From assembly GCA_021731145.1 (NCBI GenBank), contig JAKFXX010000021.1, positions 1 to 64,000 on the forward strand: a DNA stretch of 64,000 nt, given 5' to 3'. The notes beneath the pieces were generated by a model. That model was not told the DNA's origin. It saw nothing but the letters and a program-made list of their open reading frames with translations, and did not search any database. Source of the DNA: Gammaproteobacteria bacterium. Lineage in GTDB: Bacteria > Pseudomonadota > Gammaproteobacteria > Ga0077554 > Ga007554. Positions 36,364-46,288 of this stretch are shown one piece after another (within the stretch, counting starts at the first letter, position 1; every line of letters starts with the position of its first letter). A program made the position numbers and the translations under genes.

Positions 36364-37009
36364 AAACATTGTCGAGGCGGCACTGCTGGCGGCAGGGCAT
36401 CCTTTGACGCTGGAGCAACTGACGGCGCTGTTTGCCGAAGGCGAACAACCGGCGCGCGAAGAGCTTCGCAGCGCCCTGGACGAATTGCGCCAGGATTGCG
36501 GGCAGCGCGGCATCGAACTAAAAGAAGTCAGCAGCGGTTACCGTTTTCAGGCAAAGGAGGCGTTTGCGCCGTGGGTTTCCCGCCTGTGGGACGAGCGCCC
36601 TACACGCTATTCACGCGCCCTGCTGGAAACGCTGGCCTTGATGGCCTACCGCCAACCAATCACGCGCGCCGAAATCGAAGATATTCGCGGTGTCGCAGTC
36701 AGTTCAAATATTGTAAAAACCCTGCTGGAGCGCGAGTGGATACGCGTAGTGGGCCACCGTGAAGTGCCGGGCCGCCCTGCCCTGTACGGCACGACCCGCC
36801 AGTTTCTGGATTCCTTCAATCTCAAGACCCTGAATGATCTGCCGCCACTGGCCGAGATTCGCAACCTGGATGAACTGTCGAAAGATCTTTTTGAAGACTT
36901 ACCCGAGGCCGAATTCATCATTGCAGGCCTACCCGATGTTGCAGAAGATGCAACACATGATACCGTCGCTTCCGCGATGACAACGGAACAACACAATCAC
37001 ACACCATGA
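36338..37009 (+). CDS. scpB: segregation and condensation protein B
   Basis: ScpB forms the dimer that binds ScpA. The 223-residue protein has two winged-helix domains, with LKNIVEAALLAAGHPLT at the start and LALMAYRQPITRAEIEDIRGV in the second. ATG 36338 overlaps scpA by 26 nt. ATG 36344, two codons later, sits 8 nt after an AGG and may be preferred. The stop overlaps the rluB start. Confidence 0.95.
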   Translation: MSMNSQHLKNIVEAALLAAGHPLTLEQLTALFAEGEQPAREELRSALDELRQDCGQRGIELKEVSSGYRFQAKEAFAPWVSRLWDERPTRYSRALLETLALMAYRQPITRAEIEDIRGVAVSSNIVKTLLEREWIRVVGHREVPGRPALYGTTRQFLDSFNLKTLNDLPPLAEIRNLDELSKDLFEDLPEAEFIIAGLPDVAEDATHDTVASAMTTEQHNHTP

Positions 37010-38121
37010 AAAGACGCCCACCACCCACCAAGACCCAAACCACGGCTCCCCAGGCCCCTGCTGAAAGACTGCAAAAGGTACTCGCCAACGCAGGTCTCGG
37101 CTCACGCCGTCAGATCGAGGAGTGGATAGAGGCCGGGCGCATAGCCGTCAACGACAGCCCCGCCAAATTGGGCGACCGCGTGACGCTGCAAGACAAAATC
37201 GCCATTGATGGCCGCGATGTGCAAGCCTATAAGCTGGAGCCAATCAAGCGCCGCGCGCTGGTCTATTACAAACCGGAAGGCGAGGTCTGTACGCGCTCCG
37301 ACACCGAAGGACGCCCCACCATTTTTGGCCACCTCCCCAGGCTGCCTAGCGCACGCTGGATCGCCGTGGGGCGTCTCGACATCAATACCGCCGGGCTGAT
37401 TTTGCTGACCACCGATGGCGAGCTGGCCAACAAGCTCATGCACCCTTCCACAGAGGTGGAACGCGAGTACGCGGTGCGCGTGCTGGGCAAGGTGGACGAG
37501 GCGATGCTGGCGCGCCTGAAACAGGGCGTAATGCTGGATGACGGCATGGCGAATTTCGATGGCATCGAAGACGCCGGCGGTGAAGGGAGCAATCATTGGT
37601 ATCATGTAATACTCAAAGAGGGACGTAACCGCGAAGTGCGACGTTTGTGGGAAAGTCAGGGCGTGAAAGTCAGCCGCCTGATGCGCGTGCGCTATGGCCC
37701 CATCCTGCTGCGCAAAGGGATGCGCACCGGGCAGATGGAGGAGCTTGATGCCGGTGGCATCGCAAAATTGATGCAGGTCGCAGGGCTGGAAGATGCCCCT
37801 GTGCCTGACAGCCAGCCGCAGACGAGGGATCGGAAGCACGGCGCCAGGGGCCGGGGAACAGCGACCCGAGGCCGAGAACCCCAACGTGAAACGGGTAGCT
37901 CTCAGCGCGAAACGCGTAGCCCACAGCGTGAGACTCGTAGCCCACAGTGTGAGACTCGTAGCCCACAGCGTGAGACTCGTAGCCCACAGCGTGAAACGCG
38001 TAGCCCACAGCGTGAAACGCGTAGCCCGCAGCGCGAAACGCGTAGCCCTCAACGTGAAACGCGCAACTCAAAACCCGATTCGCGGAGTCCGCAGCGCAAG
38101 CCGTCCAAAACCAAACGGTAA
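37006..38121 (+). CDS. rluB: 23S rRNA pseudouridine(2605) synthase with a repeat-built tail
   Basis: RluB modifies U2605 of 23S rRNA. An S4 RNA-binding domain (about 22-70: RLQKVLANAGLGSRRQIEEW) precedes the RsuA-type synthase domain, with catalytic Asp in GRLDINTAGLILLTTDGEL. The enzyme core ends near residue 260. The last 110 residues are a basic tail containing about eight tandem copies of SPQRETR (37895-38068), a 21 nt DNA repeat. The tail is likely disordered and RNA-binding. Confidence 0.95.
   Translation: MKRRPPPTKTQTTAPQAPAERLQKVLANAGLGSRRQIEEWIEAGRIAVNDSPAKLGDRVTLQDKIAIDGRDVQAYKLEPIKRRALVYYKPEGEVCTRSDTEGRPTIFGHLPRLPSARWIAVGRLDINTAGLILLTTDGELANKLMHPSTEVEREYAVRVLGKVDEAMLARLKQGVMLDDGMANFDGIEDAGGEGSNHWYHVILKEGRNREVRRLWESQGVKVSRLMRVRYGPILLRKGMRTGQMEELDAGGIAKLMQVAGLEDAPVPDSQPQTRDRKHGARGRGTATRGREPQRETGSSQRETRSPQRETRSPQCETRSPQRETRSPQRETRSPQRETRSPQRETRSPQRETRNSKPDSRSPQRKPSKTKR
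37895..38068 (+). repeat. 21 nt tandem repeat in the 3' part of rluB
   Basis: About eight units of a 21 nt sequence (consensus CGTAGCCCACAGCGTGARAC plus one base) encode the heptad SPQRETR. Units differ mostly at silent positions, with one Cys replacing Arg, which suggests recent slippage or recombination under selection for the peptide. Confidence 0.9.
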
Positions 38122-38914: not shown

Positions 38915-40060
38915 TTAAAAATCCACCTGCCCCCGCATCTGGAAGACATCTCCATTGCCTTGCGCGATGCCTTTTTCGTAACCGGCACGCACATAATTCG
39001 CCATCAGCCGGGCATGGCGGTTTATGTACCAGTTGAGCCCCAGGGTGACGTCGTTCAACTTTTCGCCGCTATCATCGCTGATGGCGCTGTTGCGCACGGC
39101 CACTTCCCAGGCGCCCCAGCGGTTTTCGGGTTTGATCGTGCCAAATCTGCCATCCCGGTAAGGGCGCGATTCCCCGGTCAGGAACCAACTGGCATAGACA
39201 TAATAACCGTCGATATTCCGCCCTGCCCTGCCATCACTACGACTGACATCGGAGCGCATGTATTCCGCCTGCAAGGAAACGGACCCGTTGACGGCAGCGG
39301 CTTCCACGCCGGTCAGCACGGTGTTGTCGACATTTCTTATCGTCCCGGTGCTAAACCAGGCCGGGGCCAGATCGGACTCGGGGCGGGCACGGTAGCGTAA
39401 CGTGCTATCTCCCGGTACACGATAGCTGGCTCCCGCGCCAAAGTGCAGCAGCCTGCCTTTTGCATCAATGGGGGCATAGGCAACGCGTCCGGTGAACGCC
39501 CTTTTGAGGTTGCCGGCGGAGTTCAGATCTTCGGTGAATCCCCCTGCTTCCAGATACAGTCCTTTTGCGGGAGCGGCGGAAAAACCGATGCCTACGCTTC
39601 TGACAGGGGAAAATGCGTATGGCAAACCGCGCTCCATGAAGGTGGTCGCTCTGGAGCTGGTGGCCGCTTCCAGACTGAAGGGTTCATAGAACTGCCCTGC
39701 CTTGATCTTCATCGCCCTAAAGCCCGAATAGGAAACAAACGCCTGCCAAATCTCGACAGGATCAGCATTGTTGGCATTATTAAGGGCATTACTGAAATCC
39801 AGCGTCACATTATAATCCCAATCCCCATATACGCTCCCCTGCGCGGAAAGGCGCGCGCGGCGGAATCCGGTCTCATCGGTATAGCCTGTTGTCTTTCCCT
39901 GCAACGCGTCATGGCCCTGATACCAGACGGCATCGTACATAAGCAGTCCGCCGAGCCTGAAAGTGGATTGCGGGTCTTTTTGGACTTTATTGGCCGATTC
40001 GGCAAAAACCGGGCTGGTAGCCAGTGCGGCCACCATTAGAGCAGCGGGAAAACATTTCAT
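38915..40060 (-). CDS. OprO/OprP-type porin
   Basis: This 381-residue outer-membrane protein has a signal peptide (cleavage after VFA-20), STFRLGGLLMYDAVWY, the family segment GFRRARLSAQGSVYGDWDY, and KIKAGQFYEPFSLE; the C-terminus QVDF ends in Phe. OprO/OprP porins are anion-selective, often for phosphate or polyphosphate, but specificity cannot be read from sequence. It overlaps the hydrolase gene by 4 nt and is the last gene of the four-gene operon. Confidence 0.9.
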   Translation of the reverse strand: MKCFPAALMVAALATSPVFAESANKVQKDPQSTFRLGGLLMYDAVWYQGHDALQGKTTGYTDETGFRRARLSAQGSVYGDWDYNVTLDFSNALNNANNADPVEIWQAFVSYSGFRAMKIKAGQFYEPFSLEAATSSRATTFMERGLPYAFSPVRSVGIGFSAAPAKGLYLEAGGFTEDLNSAGNLKRAFTGRVAYAPIDAKGRLLHFGAGASYRVPGDSTLRYRARPESDLAPAWFSTGTIRNVDNTVLTGVEAAAVNGSVSLQAEYMRSDVSRSDGRAGRNIDGYYVYASWFLTGESRPYRDGRFGTIKPENRWGAWEVAVRNSAISDDSGEKLNDVTLGLNWYINRHARLMANYVRAGYEKGIAQGNGDVFQMRGQVDF

Positions 40061-40941
40061 TTTTCATTCCCGAACAGACAATCAAAAACCATTTCGCCCA
40101 TCCCGCCACGCCTCATGCTCTGGGTGAAAGAGTGACGGGAACGTGGCAGCGTGTGGAAGGTGTAGGACGTATTGAGGCCCTGCGTCTCGGCGGCGCGCGT
40201 CATCGCGGCAATCCAGTGCTCGCCGCGTTCAAGACGGGTGGATCCCTGCTGCTGTGCAATCTTCGGGGATTTATTCAGCGCCACATCCTGCCGCACGTCC
40301 CGCTCGCCGACGAGTACGCAGGTGGGGATGGTCAGGAAACCAGCCGGATCAAAGGAGACACCCGGCAAGCCCTTCGTCTGCGCTATGCCCTTGGGATATT
40401 TTACGGTGGGATCGGGGAAGGTATACCAGCCAGGCGCGCCCAGCACGACCTTTGCGACCCGCTCTGGATGCGCCAAGGCATAACGATGCACAAACTGCGC
40501 CCCGCCGGAATAACCAAACAGGAATAACTTGCCGGTCTGGGCGCCCGTCAAACGGCCCACCTCAGCGACGATCCTGTCCAACGCCAAATCCGCGCGCTCG
40601 CCTTTCCCCTTTCGCCCCAGGCGCTGATAATCAGGAAAACGGTCTTTCGAAAAATAAGGAGCGATCAAGACCACGCCGTAGCGTTCGGCGAATGACGCAA
40701 AGCGCTCGGCGTGCTCACGCGCATTGCGCGAGATGCCATGCACCGTAACGAAGACCGGTGCATTGGCGCCGCCGCGCTGCGGCACATAGAGAAAATATCG
40801 CTGGCGGGTGGCATCGCCAAGCATCCGCTTCGATACCATACCCACGGTGGAGAAACCATCCCTGCCATTCTCTGTTTCCACAGCCATGGTCGATGCAACA
40901 CTCGCAAACATAAACACCACTCCCAAAAAAATCCGTATCAA
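40057..40941 (-). CDS. secreted alpha/beta hydrolase (PHB-depolymerase/esterase-like)
   Basis: The 294-residue protein has a signal peptide (1-20), YVPQRGGANAPVFVTVHGIS with the oxyanion region, the nucleophile elbow GYSGG with Ser145, Asp in VGERDVR and a C-terminal RSRHSF His. It resembles polyhydroxybutyrate-depolymerase-like esterases. It overlaps the ABC exporter gene and the porin gene by 4 nt each, so it is translated with them. A periplasmic or extracellular substrate that the porin and exporter also handle is a reasonable inference. Confidence 0.88.
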   Translation of the reverse strand: MIRIFLGVVFMFASVASTMAVETENGRDGFSTVGMVSKRMLGDATRQRYFLYVPQRGGANAPVFVTVHGISRNAREHAERFASFAERYGVVLIAPYFSKDRFPDYQRLGRKGKGERADLALDRIVAEVGRLTGAQTGKLFLFGYSGGAQFVHRYALAHPERVAKVVLGAPGWYTFPDPTVKYPKGIAQTKGLPGVSFDPAGFLTIPTCVLVGERDVRQDVALNKSPKIAQQQGSTRLERGEHWIAAMTRAAETQGLNTSYTFHTLPRSRHSFTQSMRRGGMGEMVFDCLFGNEK

Positions 40942-42644
40942 CTTGCTGCCGCCATGCCCGCACGAAACATGCGCGCCGTCGGGCCATTTCCAGACAATAG
41001 CTTTGCCGGCGGACCCGCCTCCACCACCCGCCCGGACTCCATGTACCAGATGACATCCGCGCTCGACAGATGATCCAGGCGGTGAGTGACCAGAAGGATG
41101 GTGCCTCGATACCCGGCCAACACACGATCCACCACCGCACTCGCCTTGGGATCGAGGTTGGCGTCAATTTCATCGAGCAGCAGCAGCGGCGGATTGCCCA
41201 GCAGCGCGCGCGCCAGGGCAATGCGTTGACGCTGCCCCGCCGACAGGCCCACGCCACCTTCCGCCACGCGGGTTTTCTCGCCCTCCGGCAATTCAGCCAG
41301 CACTTCATCGACGCCACATAGCGCCCGCACCCGGGCGATTTCCTGCGCCGGGGCACCCGGCCAGCGGTAGCGCAGATTCTTCTCCACCGTGCCACGCAAC
41401 AGCGGCAGATCAGGCCCCGCCATGCCTATCGCACGGCGTACCGAGGCCAGACTGTGCTTCGCCAGATCCTGGCCATCCAGGCGCACCACGCCTTGGTCGG
41501 GGTCGATCAGGCGCGCCGCCAGTGACAGCAGTGTCGACTTGCCTGCGCCATTGGGGCCGACCAGAGCCACCACCGTGCCCGGCTCCACAGCCGCCATGAC
41601 CTGATCTACGCCGCCCGCCACGCTCACCGCATCAAATTCCAGACGGCCCGCGCCCAGACAAAGATCCGGCGCATCAGGGACATCTGTTACCAATGACGGA
41701 GCGTCGAGAAATTCCTGGAGCTTTTCCCGAGACACGCAGGCGCCGTGCCAATATTCCTGAACGCGCCCCAGATCGCGCAACGGCGGCATCAGTATGCCAA
41801 CGAGGGCCATGGCCGCCACCACCGTCCCCACACTGGCCTGCCCGGCGGCCACCTCGAACACCCCCATCAACAGCGCCGCTGCGGAGGCGAGTGCCGCCGT
41901 AGCCTCGGTTACGCCCAGAATCTGACCCGCTACCCGCGCCCGCTCGACCATCGCATCATGAAGCCGCTGCCCCTGTCGTGAAATACGCTCGCGCTCGCGC
42001 TCGGATTGACCGAACATCTGCACCACGGCAATGGTCGCCACCTTCTCATTGACGTTCGCGGCAAGATGGGAAAGACGCCGCCGCGATTCGCGGGCCGCCG
42101 TGCGCAACCGCTCGCCCAGACTGAAGGCGACTGCGGCACCGGTACACAGCACTACAGTGACTATCAATGCCAACGGCCAATTGATCACCGCGAGGGCTGA
42201 CAAGGCTGCCACCGTCATCACGGCGGCTACCGCCAGGCGCGCCAACCCCAGGCTGACCCAGCGGCGCAACGCCGTCATGTCCCCCACAAAGCGCAACGCC
42301 ACGCCACCCTGACTACGCTTTTGCAGCGCACGGGGCGCCAGCGAGCTGAGACGGTCGTACAGCACCATGCGCACATCCGAGGCGTAGCCCTGCCCCATAC
42401 GCTCGGCATCAACCCGCTCCATCATGCGCAACCAGGCGATAACGCCCGCCGCTGCCACCAGCCCCAATCCCGCCCACATCAGGCCAGGGTCAATTACACG
42501 ACTCTGCGGCGCCAGCATGTGATCGAACACTTGCTTCACCAGCCAGGCGGTACACACCGCCGCCCCCGCCTGGGCCAGACCATTGGCGACCAGGCGGGCA
42601 AGCAGTGTGCGGCGCCCTCCTTGAAATACGCGAGGGATGTTCAT
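40938..42644 (-). CDS. ABC exporter, fused membrane and ATPase domains
   Basis: The 568-residue half-transporter, probably a homodimer, has an N-terminal type 1 exporter membrane domain (about 15-300) and an ATPase domain with Walker A GPNGAGKST, variant signature LSAGQRQRIALARA and Walker B LLLLDEIDANLDP. No substrate can be read from sequence. The ATG overlaps the stop of the P-loop protein gene by 1 nt. Confidence 0.9.
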   Translation of the reverse strand: MNIPRVFQGGRRTLLARLVANGLAQAGAAVCTAWLVKQVFDHMLAPQSRVIDPGLMWAGLGLVAAAGVIAWLRMMERVDAERMGQGYASDVRMVLYDRLSSLAPRALQKRSQGGVALRFVGDMTALRRWVSLGLARLAVAAVMTVAALSALAVINWPLALIVTVVLCTGAAVAFSLGERLRTAARESRRRLSHLAANVNEKVATIAVVQMFGQSERERERISRQGQRLHDAMVERARVAGQILGVTEATAALASAAALLMGVFEVAAGQASVGTVVAAMALVGILMPPLRDLGRVQEYWHGACVSREKLQEFLDAPSLVTDVPDAPDLCLGAGRLEFDAVSVAGGVDQVMAAVEPGTVVALVGPNGAGKSTLLSLAARLIDPDQGVVRLDGQDLAKHSLASVRRAIGMAGPDLPLLRGTVEKNLRYRWPGAPAQEIARVRALCGVDEVLAELPEGEKTRVAEGGVGLSAGQRQRIALARALLGNPPLLLLDEIDANLDPKASAVVDRVLAGYRGTILLVTHRLDHLSSADVIWYMESGRVVEAGPPAKLLSGNGPTARMFRAGMAAAS

Positions 42645-43702
42645 CAGGCGGACAGCGCGATTTTGGAGTACATCCCAAGCTCGGTTGCGATAGCGGCATC
42701 ACGCAACATCTTTTTGTCAAACACCGGCAGACCTGTTGCGTTGGTAGCCTCGGTAATCGCCAGCGGCGACGCCGTCAACAGGCCGCTCACGGCACTCACA
42801 GGCAGGCCCTTGCGGCGCAGCCACTCCACCCCGGCCGCCGCACCCATCGCATCACCCGCAGCGAAAATCACCTCGTTTACCGTCCGGGCAAACAGCGGCG
42901 AATCCAGCAGTGCCGCCGTCTCGGCCTGGTACAGACCGTCCGCCACCTCCAGCACGATAACATCCATCCCGGCCTTTGCCAGATGGCCGGTCAGCGTGGC
43001 AAGAATGCCTTCCACCTCCGCCGCTGTGGTACGGAACGTGGAAGGAAAACCGGCATCAGTGAAATCGAGCGCGAGCCTGGCCCCGGCATCGCCCATAAAC
43101 CAGATGTCCTTGCCCGACCCCGTGCCAGTCACCTTGGCCGCACCCACCTTGAGGCCGGCGTTGGTCAGGCCATGGATCAGATTGGCCGCCGTGGTGGTCT
43201 TGCCAGCATTCATCGCGGTGCCGACCACGGCCACCGTATAGGGCAAGGGGCGCGGGTGACCCGGCTTAGCCACCGCTGCGCCAGACAGATTGATGCGTTG
43301 CCCGTTGACATCAGCCAGCAGACCAACGGGGGAAATAACAGTAGGCGATTTCATATTGGCATGCCAGGACAAGGCCCGCGCAGCGATACCGCCTGCCGCC
43401 ACCAGATGACACGCCGCCAGATCGTCCGGCACCTCCGCTTCGAACTGATCGGGGGCATAGCGGTTGCCATAACACACCACAACCTCATCCCCGGTGAACA
43501 AAATCGCACGGCGGCCGTTGGTCAGCTCCAGGCCCGCATGCTGGCCGATCTTCTCCACACGCGCCAGCACCAGATCACCGACATTGGGCACGACATCCTC
43601 CCCGGCCAGCAGCGTTGCCGCCGCCTCAAGGTTGACATGGCGAGGGGTGTAGGAAACCTTGGCGCGAAGAATACGCTCGTGGCTGATAGTTAACATGTTC
43701 AT
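42644..43702 (-). CDS. P-loop NTPase of uncharacterised family (MobB/BioD/DUF1611-like fold)
   Basis: The 352-residue product has an N-terminal beta-rich region (about 25-95; GDLVLARVEKIGQHAGLEL), then a linker and a P-loop domain with GTAMNAGKTT at 161-170, AKVTGTGSGKDIWFMGD and VIVLEVADGLYQ. The P-loop half resembles dethiobiotin-synthetase/MobB-type and DUF1611 proteins; I am not certain of the family. It might be a ligase or kinase acting on a small molecule. AGGAG is 6 nt before the ATG. It is the first gene of the operon. Confidence 0.75.
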   Translation of the reverse strand: MNMLTISHERILRAKVSYTPRHVNLEAAATLLAGEDVVPNVGDLVLARVEKIGQHAGLELTNGRRAILFTGDEVVVCYGNRYAPDQFEAEVPDDLAACHLVAAGGIAARALSWHANMKSPTVISPVGLLADVNGQRINLSGAAVAKPGHPRPLPYTVAVVGTAMNAGKTTTAANLIHGLTNAGLKVGAAKVTGTGSGKDIWFMGDAGARLALDFTDAGFPSTFRTTAAEVEGILATLTGHLAKAGMDVIVLEVADGLYQAETAALLDSPLFARTVNEVIFAAGDAMGAAAGVEWLRRKGLPVSAVSGLLTASPLAITEATNATGLPVFDKKMLRDAAIATELGMYSKIALSA

Positions 43703-43875
43703 GGTAAGCTCCTTGCAAACAATCGTTTATGGTATGGAAAATAATTTCCAGGTTCTTCAACAACTTCAATCCCGAAGCCGCCACACAACGATAGTTATGT
43801 TTTGTGACTACCCCATTACAAAAGGAGGGAACACTGCCGCTGTGATTATTGCCGCTTAACCCCTTCCTCTTGTTT

Positions 43876-43907
43876 GGGAATTTATTCCCATTTTTTGGTG
43901 GTGTCAA
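43876..43907 (-). promoter_or_regulatory. promoter and operator-like palindrome of the P-loop/ABC/hydrolase/porin operon
   Basis: On the minus strand: TTGACA (43907-43902), ten bases, then ATGGGAATAAATTCCC, a near-perfect palindrome overlapping the expected -10 (TAAATT at 17 nt, or AATAAA at 15 nt). The same TTGACA-N10-ATGGGAATAA occurs before the DUF6502 gene at 46260-46288. A repressor or activator site covering the -10 is likely. Confidence 0.65.
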
Positions 43908-43957
43908 CACCTTTCTTATAATTTTAGGAAATTTTTCACATATATTTTCCTGGCGAT

Positions 43958-43988
43958 AAAAAAAGGGACCCGAAGGCCCCCGTTTTTT
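43958..43988 (-). terminator. intrinsic terminator with UUCG loop
   Basis: On the minus strand, GGGGCC-TTCG-GGTCCC (one G-U pair) is followed by a run of seven Ts. It lies 175 nt after the DUF5666 stop and just upstream of the next operon's promoter, so it separates the two units. The A-tract on the other side may let it work in both directions. Confidence 0.85.
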
Positions 43989-44049
43989 GGCGTTTCCGCC
44001 TTGGCTAGTGTAGTGCTTCGTTCTTGATGGTACTTATGTGCAAACCCTT

Positions 44050-44096
44050 GTAGGTCGGGCTAAAGCCCGACATGTCGGGTTGAAACCCGACCTACA
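44050..44096 (+). repeat. TAGGTCGGG palindromic repeat
   Basis: Arms TAGGTCGGGCTAAAGCCCGA and TCGGGTTGAAACCCGACCTA are nested inverted repeats separated by CATG. It belongs to the same class of palindromes as the TAGGGTGCG and TAGGTTGGG elements in this window. Confidence 0.75.
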
Positions 44097-44162
44097 GTGC
44101 AGCACTGGCCGTTGGCATAAGTTCCAAGCAGAATGCAACACTACACTAGCAGATTGGCGCGA

Positions 44163-45413
44163 TCAGTCGTCACGCTCGACCTTGATGGCGATGCTCGTTT
44201 GGCCTGTTATATAGAATTTGATCTTCAGGGGATCCACTTTGGTTATATTCCCCAGATCACGCCGGATGCCGTCTTCGAACAAAGTGTCGTTGTTAACAGT
44301 GATTGTCACGGTCCGCGCACCATCGGATATGGAGAGGGTATCAGAGGACGTGACCGAGGTGACCTGCCCCTTAATCTCATCGAAAACAATTCCGCCTCCA
44401 TCACCACCACCGCTGCCACCACCACTCGCACCATCGTCGCCACCCAGCTTGAATTTCACCTTCTGCGCTATCAGCACGCCATTGGTGATTTTACCTTCCA
44501 CCTCGACCCTGACGTTATTATCCAGGTCGGCCTTGATGCCATTCTCGTAACCGGAATCGAGCATACTGGCGACGCTCACCGCCACGCCATTGACGTTAAA
44601 GGTGCCACCAGGCAGGCCCGTCACAAAACCTTCGATTTCGACCTCTTCGCCATTCTTGGCGCCGCCCAGCGAACAACTGTCATCGGATTCGATACTGGTT
44701 GCCGTGATCACATTGTCGGTTGCTGTGCCTTTGACTTCCACGCACGTGCCTTCCCTCACGTCGCTGGGAAGGCCGCCGGGAACGCTGCTGTAATTCACAG
44801 TAGTAGTCACACCAATAGTGAAAGTCCCAGGTGAGTTGTTGAGGTTGCTGACAACGCCCTTCAACTCGACTTCGCCAGCAGTCCCCGTTTTAACCTCTAC
44901 ACGCGTGGCGCGGATATCCCCATTGGCATCGCGCAACCCGCTCACTTCAACGATCTGACTTGGTTGCAAGCCAGCAAACCCCGCTATTCCCGAAAACACC
45001 GTCAGGGCATCCACTTTGATAGTCTGCCCCAGCACAGTGAAGGTGCCACCCGTACCTGTCGTCGCTGGACTAATGCCCGCCACCGGCCCCTGCACATCAT
45101 CGGAATACTTGATACGCTTCGCGGTGAACTTGCCGCTGGCGTCCTTCTCCCACTCCACGCGCACCACCATGCCAACCCCCAGATTGGCTTGCGTGATGCC
45201 GCTGGTCTGACCCTCCACCTCAATCTCCGCCCTTTCGGTGGCAAATTCGATACCGTTGACAAACACACTGCCAAACCCGGTCACCGGCCCCTGGCTCATA
45301 CCCGTGCCGCCGATCCCGCCGCCCGCGAGTCCTCCTGCGCCGCCGCCACAGGAGACCAGCCCCGATAGGACGAAAGACACCAGCAAACCCCTGGCAAACA
45401 ATCTGGCTTTCAT
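44163..45413 (-). CDS. DUF5666-repeat lipoprotein
   Basis: The 416-residue protein has lipobox LVSC (Cys22) and a glycine-rich segment. It then has several copies of a beta-rich repeat of about 70 residues (VTGFGSVFVNGIEFATERAEI; VQGPVAGISPATTGTGGTF), which is the DUF5666 pattern, and a second Gly/Ser-rich stretch near 340-360. Function unknown; a surface or periplasmic anchor protein is likely. It is coupled to the DUF6502 gene by a 4 nt overlap. Confidence 0.85.
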   Translation of the reverse strand: MKARLFARGLLVSFVLSGLVSCGGGAGGLAGGGIGGTGMSQGPVTGFGSVFVNGIEFATERAEIEVEGQTSGITQANLGVGMVVRVEWEKDASGKFTAKRIKYSDDVQGPVAGISPATTGTGGTFTVLGQTIKVDALTVFSGIAGFAGLQPSQIVEVSGLRDANGDIRATRVEVKTGTAGEVELKGVVSNLNNSPGTFTIGVTTTVNYSSVPGGLPSDVREGTCVEVKGTATDNVITATSIESDDSCSLGGAKNGEEVEIEGFVTGLPGGTFNVNGVAVSVASMLDSGYENGIKADLDNNVRVEVEGKITNGVLIAQKVKFKLGGDDGASGGGSGGGDGGGIVFDEIKGQVTSVTSSDTLSISDGARTVTITVNNDTLFEDGIRRDLGNITKVDPLKIKFYITGQTSIAIKVERDD

Positions 45414-46252
45414 TTCAGCTCCTCTTCTGATGACGCATCATAATCTTCTTCGAAATAATAAATACCCACACCCGCATTTTTGCGCCCCGTCCCGCCGGCG
45501 GAAGGATTGGCATCACGGTCATGCCCGGCGAGATAACGATCCAGCTCTTCCAGCAATGCCTGCGCGCGCGCAGCGCTCAGTGCGCGAAACTGCGGCAGAA
45601 TATCTTCCGGCAGATTGTCGTAAGCCACCTTACGCTGAAATAAACGCTCATCGGCAGTGTGGCGGAGGTTGTGATCAATGGTGGCTATGAGCAATCTCAC
45701 GTCGGTGCCCAGTATTTCGAGCTTGGCTATGTCATCGGTTTGAGGTAGATAGGCACGGTTGCACAGCCGAATGCGGTCATCATCAAGACGCTCGACTGTG
45801 CCGACGCGAATCAGTTCATCGAGCATGGCGCGCGCCGGCACATCGCGGCTGAATTCCTTGACCAGCCCTTCAAACGTCGCCCCCTCGCCACTCAAGGGAA
45901 GATCGGCGGGATTGCCCTTCGTGTCGGCAAAGCGCACATCCCGCACCCAGCCGCTGACCACCCGTGCGGCACGGTTATAACGCTCCTCGGCGGCATCATC
46001 ATACGGCGCGCCCAGCTCCTGCAGCCGCGTAATTTCCTTGCGCGACAAACCAGTAATGACCGCCGCCCGAGACACGGACTGCTTGCGGCCTGCTATGCTA
46101 AACTCACGCAACGCCACATCCGCATACACCCAGCGCGCAATATCCTCAAACACGCCATAGGGCACACCATTGCGCAGCAGGATGCGCACCAGTGGGCGCA
46201 GCAATCTGGCGACAGCGGAAGAAAGCGCTTTGGTAAACTTTTTATTTGGCAT
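45410..46252 (-). CDS. DUF6502 family protein with helix-turn-helix
   Basis: The 280-residue protein is soluble. Residues 57-80 (SVSRAAVITGLSRKEITRLQEL) look like a helix-turn-helix, following the conserved start SSAVARLLRPLVRILLRNGV. DUF6502-DUF5666 pairs recur in proteobacteria, but the function is not known. No Shine-Dalgarno sequence is present: the promoter lies so close that the transcript would begin at or within a few bases of the ATG. A regulatory role is inferred. Confidence 0.83.
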   Translation of the reverse strand: MPNKKFTKALSSAVARLLRPLVRILLRNGVPYGVFEDIARWVYADVALREFSIAGRKQSVSRAAVITGLSRKEITRLQELGAPYDDAAEERYNRAARVVSGWVRDVRFADTKGNPADLPLSGEGATFEGLVKEFSRDVPARAMLDELIRVGTVERLDDDRIRLCNRAYLPQTDDIAKLEILGTDVRLLIATIDHNLRHTADERLFQRKVAYDNLPEDILPQFRALSAARAQALLEELDRYLAGHDRDANPSAGGTGRKNAGVGIYYFEEDYDASSEEELK

Positions 46253-46259
46253 GATTAGG

Positions 46260-46288
46260 AAATTATTCCCATTTCATGGGATTGTCAA
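46260..46288 (-). promoter_or_regulatory. promoter of the DUF6502-DUF5666 operon with shared operator-like motif
   Basis: On the minus strand: TTGACA (46288-46283), ten bases, then ATGGGAATAATTTCC. The -10 would be TAATTT (17 nt spacer) or AATAAT (15 nt). An additional CCCATGAAATGGG palindrome lies in the spacer. The predicted transcription start is within about four bases of the ATG at 46252. Confidence 0.6.

Follow-up and report, generated by a model that had tools for sequence, protein, structure and literature searches.

The window, by which we mean the whole stretch of DNA that was analysed (64,000 nucleotides of contig JAKFXX010000021.1 of a Gammaproteobacteria bacterium), contains two neighbouring operons on its minus strand. 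One encodes a DUF6502 and a DUF5666 protein, and the other a P-loop NTPase, an ABC exporter, a hydrolase and a porin. The features of this region are as follows.

46283..46288, minus strand: -35 hexamer TTGACA of the DUF6502-DUF5666 promoter, read from the sequence and kept in orthologs
46255..46272, minus strand: putative operator O1, ATGGGAATAATTTCCTAA, which encloses the -10 TAATTT (46265..46260); the start codon is at 46252
45410..46252, minus strand: DUF6502 regulator gene (280 aa; Pfam PF20112, E 7e-87), with a predicted helix-turn-helix (HTH) at residues 60-80 of the AlphaFold model
44163..45413, minus strand: DUF5666 gene, lipoprotein-like (416 aa; Pfam PF18914 in four stretches), overlapping the DUF6502 stop codon
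43902..43907, minus strand: -35 hexamer TTGACA of the P-loop operon promoter, read from the sequence
43874..43891, minus strand: putative operator O2, ATGGGAATAAATTCCCAA, which encloses the -10 TAAATT (43884..43879)
43703..43873, minus strand: 171-nt 5' leader that precedes the P-loop NTPase gene, with strong conservation across five genomes
42644..43702, minus strand: P-loop NTPase (352 aa), with weak MobB/DUF1611 similarity
40938..42644, minus strand: ABC exporter with fused membrane and ATPase domains (568 aa), from domain matches
40057..40941, minus strand: alpha/beta hydrolase (294 aa), with weak esterase or PHB-depolymerase-like matches
38915..40060, minus strand: outer-membrane porin of the Porin_O_P type (381 aa), from a domain match

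The DUF6502 protein is a full-length member of its family (291 bits against PF20112 over residues 8-271 of 280, with a gathering cut-off of 27), and the N-terminus of the DUF5666 protein is signal-like and carries SCGGG. Neither protein matched NCBIfam, and Rfam gave no match around the two loci. The conservation of the 171-nt leader reaches another genus among the five genomes compared; RNAalifold predicted hairpins within it, but none of the 44 predicted pairs changes on both sides, i.e. there is no covariation. A MITE-like element lies between the two operons (44004-44150), with 35-nt terminal inverted repeats (80% complementary, GCTAGTGTAGTGCTTCG...) and a core formed by a 24+24-nt palindrome (TGTAGGTCGGG...CCCGACCTACA); a second copy of this inner palindrome was not found in the window. 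Further along (37006-38121) there is a pseudouridine-synthase-like open reading frame, which ends in a C-terminal run of near-identical 7-residue repeats (RETRSPQ).

A sequence-only reading of this region had proposed that one motif stands at the same spacing upstream of both operons and that chance was an improbable source of this coincidence. Both points were borne out. Only two exact matches to TTGACA-N10-ATGGGAATAA exist in the whole 2.89-Mb genome, namely the DUF6502-DUF5666 promoter (TTGACAATCCCATGAAATGGGAATAA, minus strand 46288..46263) and the P-loop operon promoter (TTGACACCACCAAAAAATGGGAATAA, minus strand 43907..43882). All remaining matches carry three mismatches, and a reversed-pattern control yielded 10 such chance matches; for 16 fixed bases in 2.9 Mb, about 0.001 matches are expected by chance. 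Both promoters have a near-consensus sigma-70 architecture (TTGACA, a 17-bp spacer and the -10 TAATTT or TAAATT). The palindrome that had been placed over the -10 of the downstream operon is also real, and it is now redescribed as an 18-bp dyad, TTGGGA-N6-TCCCAA, which spans the -10 at both promoters. The P-loop site differs from this dyad at one of the 12 arm bases, while the DUF6502 site is at most three of 12 letters off the dyad as drawn and was scored with two mismatches in the scan of upstream loci described below.

A palindrome search of the genome revealed a third site of the same architecture, TTGACT-N10-TTGGGAATATATTCCCAA (contig C2:175695..175662, minus strand). The gene downstream of it encodes a second DUF5666 protein; DUF5666 domains occur at only two loci in this genome, and each has the operator upstream. 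In addition, TTGGGACTAGACTCCCAA is located approximately 55 bp 5' of a gene for a small glycine-zipper protein (L106 1501-1518; G000:C11:6311-6328). An identical site is present in genomes G004 and G006, and in the latter it lies 55 bp before the homologous gene; the glycine-zipper gene may thus be a further member of the regulon. A few other operator-like sites resemble chance occurrences or have no clear gene downstream (L096; L275, L276).

The refutation offered for the original proposal was that the motif might be found at hundreds of loci, or might not be conserved upstream of orthologous operons. Neither was the case. In six genomes of the family, TTGAC-N11-WTGGGAATANNTTCC occurs three to four times per genome. 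The genes that follow these sites are the DUF6502-DUF5666 pair, additional DUF5666 genes and the P-loop operon, joined in a single genome by a glycosyltransferase operon; no clear gene follows closely behind one further site (L059). In two genomes (G006 and G007) the P-loop operon is located apart from the DUF6502 gene and still keeps its operator site. The operator, DUF6502, DUF5666 and the P-loop gene are all present in six family genomes and all absent from two, one of which is only 85% complete. Across 18 promoters, TTGAC carries 2.0 bits per position, the dyad 1.7 and the spacer between them 0.6. These sites were selected by pattern, so the conservation of the arms partly reflects the selection; the spacer and the outer bases of the dyad were free to vary. 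An origin of the two window sites by recent local duplication or by chance, which the 2.4 kb between the units might suggest, has a negligible likelihood and is ruled out by the genome scan and the comparative data, since spacers and flanks differ, the dyad is kept at distant loci in relatives, and the chance expectation is so low.

The analysis was extended to 80 DUF6502 loci, scanned from named records of Gammaproteobacteria, Nitrospirota, Desulfobacterota, SAR324 and other groups, most of which are metagenome-assembled genomes. The dyad TTGGGA-N6-TCCCAA, with at most one mismatch, was found upstream of DUF6502 at 57 of the 80 loci within 150 bp, and at 64 within 500 bp. The best of 59 permuted half-site controls reached 1/80 and 2/80, respectively, and other centre lengths of the dyad occurred at no more than two of the 80 loci (150 bp). 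No site with at most one mismatch was detected within 500 bp at the remaining 16 loci, six of which have a site with two mismatches; the DUF6502 proteins of loci without an operator do not visibly differ in the recognition helix. When the set was restricted to proteins less than 70% identical, 38 of 46 loci contained the operator (up to two mismatches). The arms of these 38 operators are nearly invariant (GGG of the left arm in all of them; CCC of the right arm in 36, 38 and 38 of 38); their centre is variable and A/T-rich.

At 40 loci, only 1-4 bp separate the operator from the start codon. TTGACA (at most one mismatch) stands near the expected offset in 31 of these 40, against a background of 3.5% in shifted windows; the -10 mostly reads TATAAT, TATATT or TAAAAT. 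If the start of transcription lies at the typical distance from the -10, the mRNA of DUF6502 is predicted to be usually leaderless. Some operators are instead located 85-195 bp upstream, several of them without a good -35, and the mechanism may therefore vary among loci. It might be argued that the motif is no operator and merely marks a class of promoters, recognized by an alternative sigma factor, or a strong promoter shared by the loci, as the pattern does include TTGACA, the 17-bp spacing and the -10. We consider this very improbable: the constant part consists of the dyad arms, TTGGGA and TCCCAA, held exactly 6 bp apart, the letters of the -10 that fall within the centre of the dyad vary, some sites lack a -35, and the site is confined to DUF6502-bearing genomes.

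This confinement was evident from a survey of the class, in which 369 genomes were sampled. The operator was detected in 31 of them, as the union of 18 genomes with the first pattern and 23 with the generalised operator TTGGGANTANANTCCCAA. All 31 are among the 99 genomes with DUF6502 (Fisher p = 4e-20; the p-values were not corrected for kinship among genomes), and no operator was found in the 270 sampled class genomes without DUF6502. There was likewise no operator site in the 11 class genomes that have DUF5666 without DUF6502. Sites found blindly in other orders are mostly upstream of DUF6502 or DUF5666 genes.

The AlphaFold model of DUF6502 (built from 88 sequences, mean pLDDT 88) predicts an HTH formed by helices 60-67 and 71-80, in which R62 and R71 are invariant and K72, E73 and R76 nearly so. 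The binding of the palindrome by another conserved regulator, with DUF6502 as just one of its targets, cannot be entirely dismissed, as there are no binding data and the two are linked only through co-occurrence and position. This seems to us a slim chance, because the site tracks DUF6502 across phyla regardless of its neighbours, is missing from the 270 sampled class genomes without DUF6502 and from the DUF5666 genes they contain, and DUF6502 itself has an HTH. The original suggestion that DUF6502 “or another local factor” controls both operons thus shifts strongly towards DUF6502, whose own promoter carries the operator across phyla, although both the binding and the sign of control remain inferred.

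The number of targets is small in distant genomes as well. Among 39 distant genomes with DUF6502, 37 have between one and eight sites, with controls near zero. Judging by the longest open frames downstream of the sites, and not by annotated genes, the same targets recur: DUF6502 itself, genes for DUF5666 lipoprotein-like proteins, the operon encoding a P-loop protein, an ABC protein and an outer-membrane barrel, and glycosyltransferase/export clusters. The regulon of six genes proposed at the outset is too small, since the second DUF5666 locus belongs to it as well, as may one additional gene. In a Nitrospirota genome, divergent operators serve DUF6502-DUF5666 and an operon of a P-loop protein, an ABC exporter and an alginate-export-type barrel. 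The P-loop protein is 37% and the exporter 23% identical to those of the window, but the barrel cannot be aligned with the window porin; the outer-membrane slot is therefore filled by different families. Behind other sites there are a glycosyltransferase-28/glycosyltransferase/ABC/alginate-export operon (in Nitrospirota and in a relative of the window) and an ATP-grasp/MFS/Porin_O_P cluster. The common theme of these targets is enzymes of synthesis or ligation, an inner-membrane exporter and an outer-membrane barrel; a role of the module in the cell envelope or in export is inferred, with its product unidentified.

Two side observations were made in Nitrospirota. An operon with an operator upstream (L258 2958-9436) combines three ATP-grasp genes of the RimK type with genes for a mannitol-dehydrogenase-like protein, an MFS transporter and a Porin_O_P protein, and looks like an undescribed biosynthesis-export cluster. 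One genome (G381, L220-L227) carries eight operators that match perfectly, along with at least three genes for DUF6502, which suggests an expanded regulon.

Taken together, we regard it as likely, in the absence of binding or expression data, that DUF6502 is a dimeric HTH regulator which recognizes TTGGGA-N6-TCCCAA and represses its own operon together with partner operons. Very probably, the family is one of gene switches that control their own expression and have not been recognised as such. Sequence evidence supports the sites, with their promoter geometry, conservation, specificity and co-occurrence with DUF6502; the remainder of the mechanism is inferred. A DUF6502 dimer would bind the palindrome covering the -10 of the sigma-70 promoters of the DUF6502-DUF5666 operon, of the P-loop/ABC exporter/hydrolase/porin operon and of the second DUF5666 gene. 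The bound dimer would block RNA polymerase, resulting in repression and negative autoregulation, and release would be triggered by an unidentified signal, presumably sensed by the rest of the DUF6502 protein. Three features expected of an autoregulated local repressor are present: a conserved dyad at its own promoter, overlap of this dyad with the core promoter, and the regulator in every operator-bearing genome of the class sample.

Repression is the likeliest sign because the -35, the spacer and the -10 are near consensus and the operator overlaps the -10, but this preference is based on promoter geometry only. Alternatively, DUF6502 might bind the same operator and act as an activator, or switch between activation and repression, as HetR, the heterocyst master regulator of cyanobacteria, does for its targets. 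A loose fold resemblance to HetR and the minority of operators that lie 85-195 bp upstream, from where a promoter is less readily blocked, speak for such a role. We nevertheless hold it to be unlikely, though less so than the other alternatives: most loci have a near-consensus promoter, with a 17-bp spacer, whose -10 is covered by the dyad; a dimer bound there would exclude the polymerase, and no activator would be needed.

If this reading holds, a large family of unknown function, present in 99 of the 369 sampled class genomes and in several other phyla, gains a specific job, that of a transcription regulator with a defined operator. The DUF5666 proteins and the P-loop/ABC/outer-membrane operon are thereby tied into one regulon, and the operator makes regulon prediction possible in DUF6502-bearing genomes.

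PF20112, to which the window regulator clearly belongs, is a Pfam family of unknown function. Among the open-access papers searched, none names DUF6502 and none prints the five operator cores searched. A Pfam scan of 32 DUF6502 proteins (E up to 10) matched no characterised regulator family, with only stray HTH matches in single members, and the only PDB sequences retrieved with the profile of DUF6502 were those of designed helical proteins and, weakly, of a ribosomal protein.

For both AlphaFold models, HetR gave the best structural match and the only one that spans the full length. In the VIA comparison, residues 8-270 of the DUF6502 model were superimposed on residues 10-298 of HetR (Z 7.8; rmsd 10.8 A over 222 residues, i.e. 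in the range of 10-11 A), and the HTH occupies a similar position in both chains. This Z lies in the range where the tool warns of a mere common arrangement, and a Foldseek match to HetR (E 0.015) vanished with the better model. Comparison by hhalign of the 32- and 88-row DUF6502 alignments with HetR gave nothing significant, with only two HetR sequences in the profile; a search of plasmids and viral contigs provided no HetR relatives to enrich it. Within this limited comparison, homology to HetR at the sequence level is not supported. HetR controls its own gene and recognizes a GGG..CCC dyad, with the consensus GGG-N5-CCC (PMC4649674), from which the GGG-N8-CCC of the DUF6502 operator departs. 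It also differs in scale and distribution: 38 direct HetR sites have been reported in Anabaena, compared with one to eight sites per DUF6502 genome, and HetR is cyanobacterial, whereas DUF6502 is found in Gammaproteobacteria, Nitrospirota, Desulfobacterota and others. Because of a Z in this range, the lost Foldseek match, the null profiles and the different site spacing, the HetR-like layout of the modelled fold serves as no more than a lead, unsupported by sequence profiles. The bolder idea, that DUF6502 is a widespread non-cyanobacterial regulator of HetR-like architecture, which senses a signal through its C-terminal part (perhaps a peptide or export product) and acts through TTGGGA-N6-TCCCAA on an envelope or export module made up of DUF5666 proteins and biosynthesis-export operons, remains doubtful.

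Residues 85-168 of the DUF6502 model are winged-helix-like and resemble regulators of the MarR and IclR types (Z about 6 over 60-70 residues). This likeness is limited to one subdomain and is not accompanied by a sequence family match, and the cullin WHB domain, among other winged helices without kinship, reaches a similar Z. Classical autoregulated repressors place a palindrome over the core promoter of their own gene and have few targets. DUF6502 is unlike them in that its family has no described function, its operator is undescribed and the regulator mRNA is usually predicted to be leaderless, but it shares with them both the palindrome over its own core promoter, at the -10, and the small number of targets.
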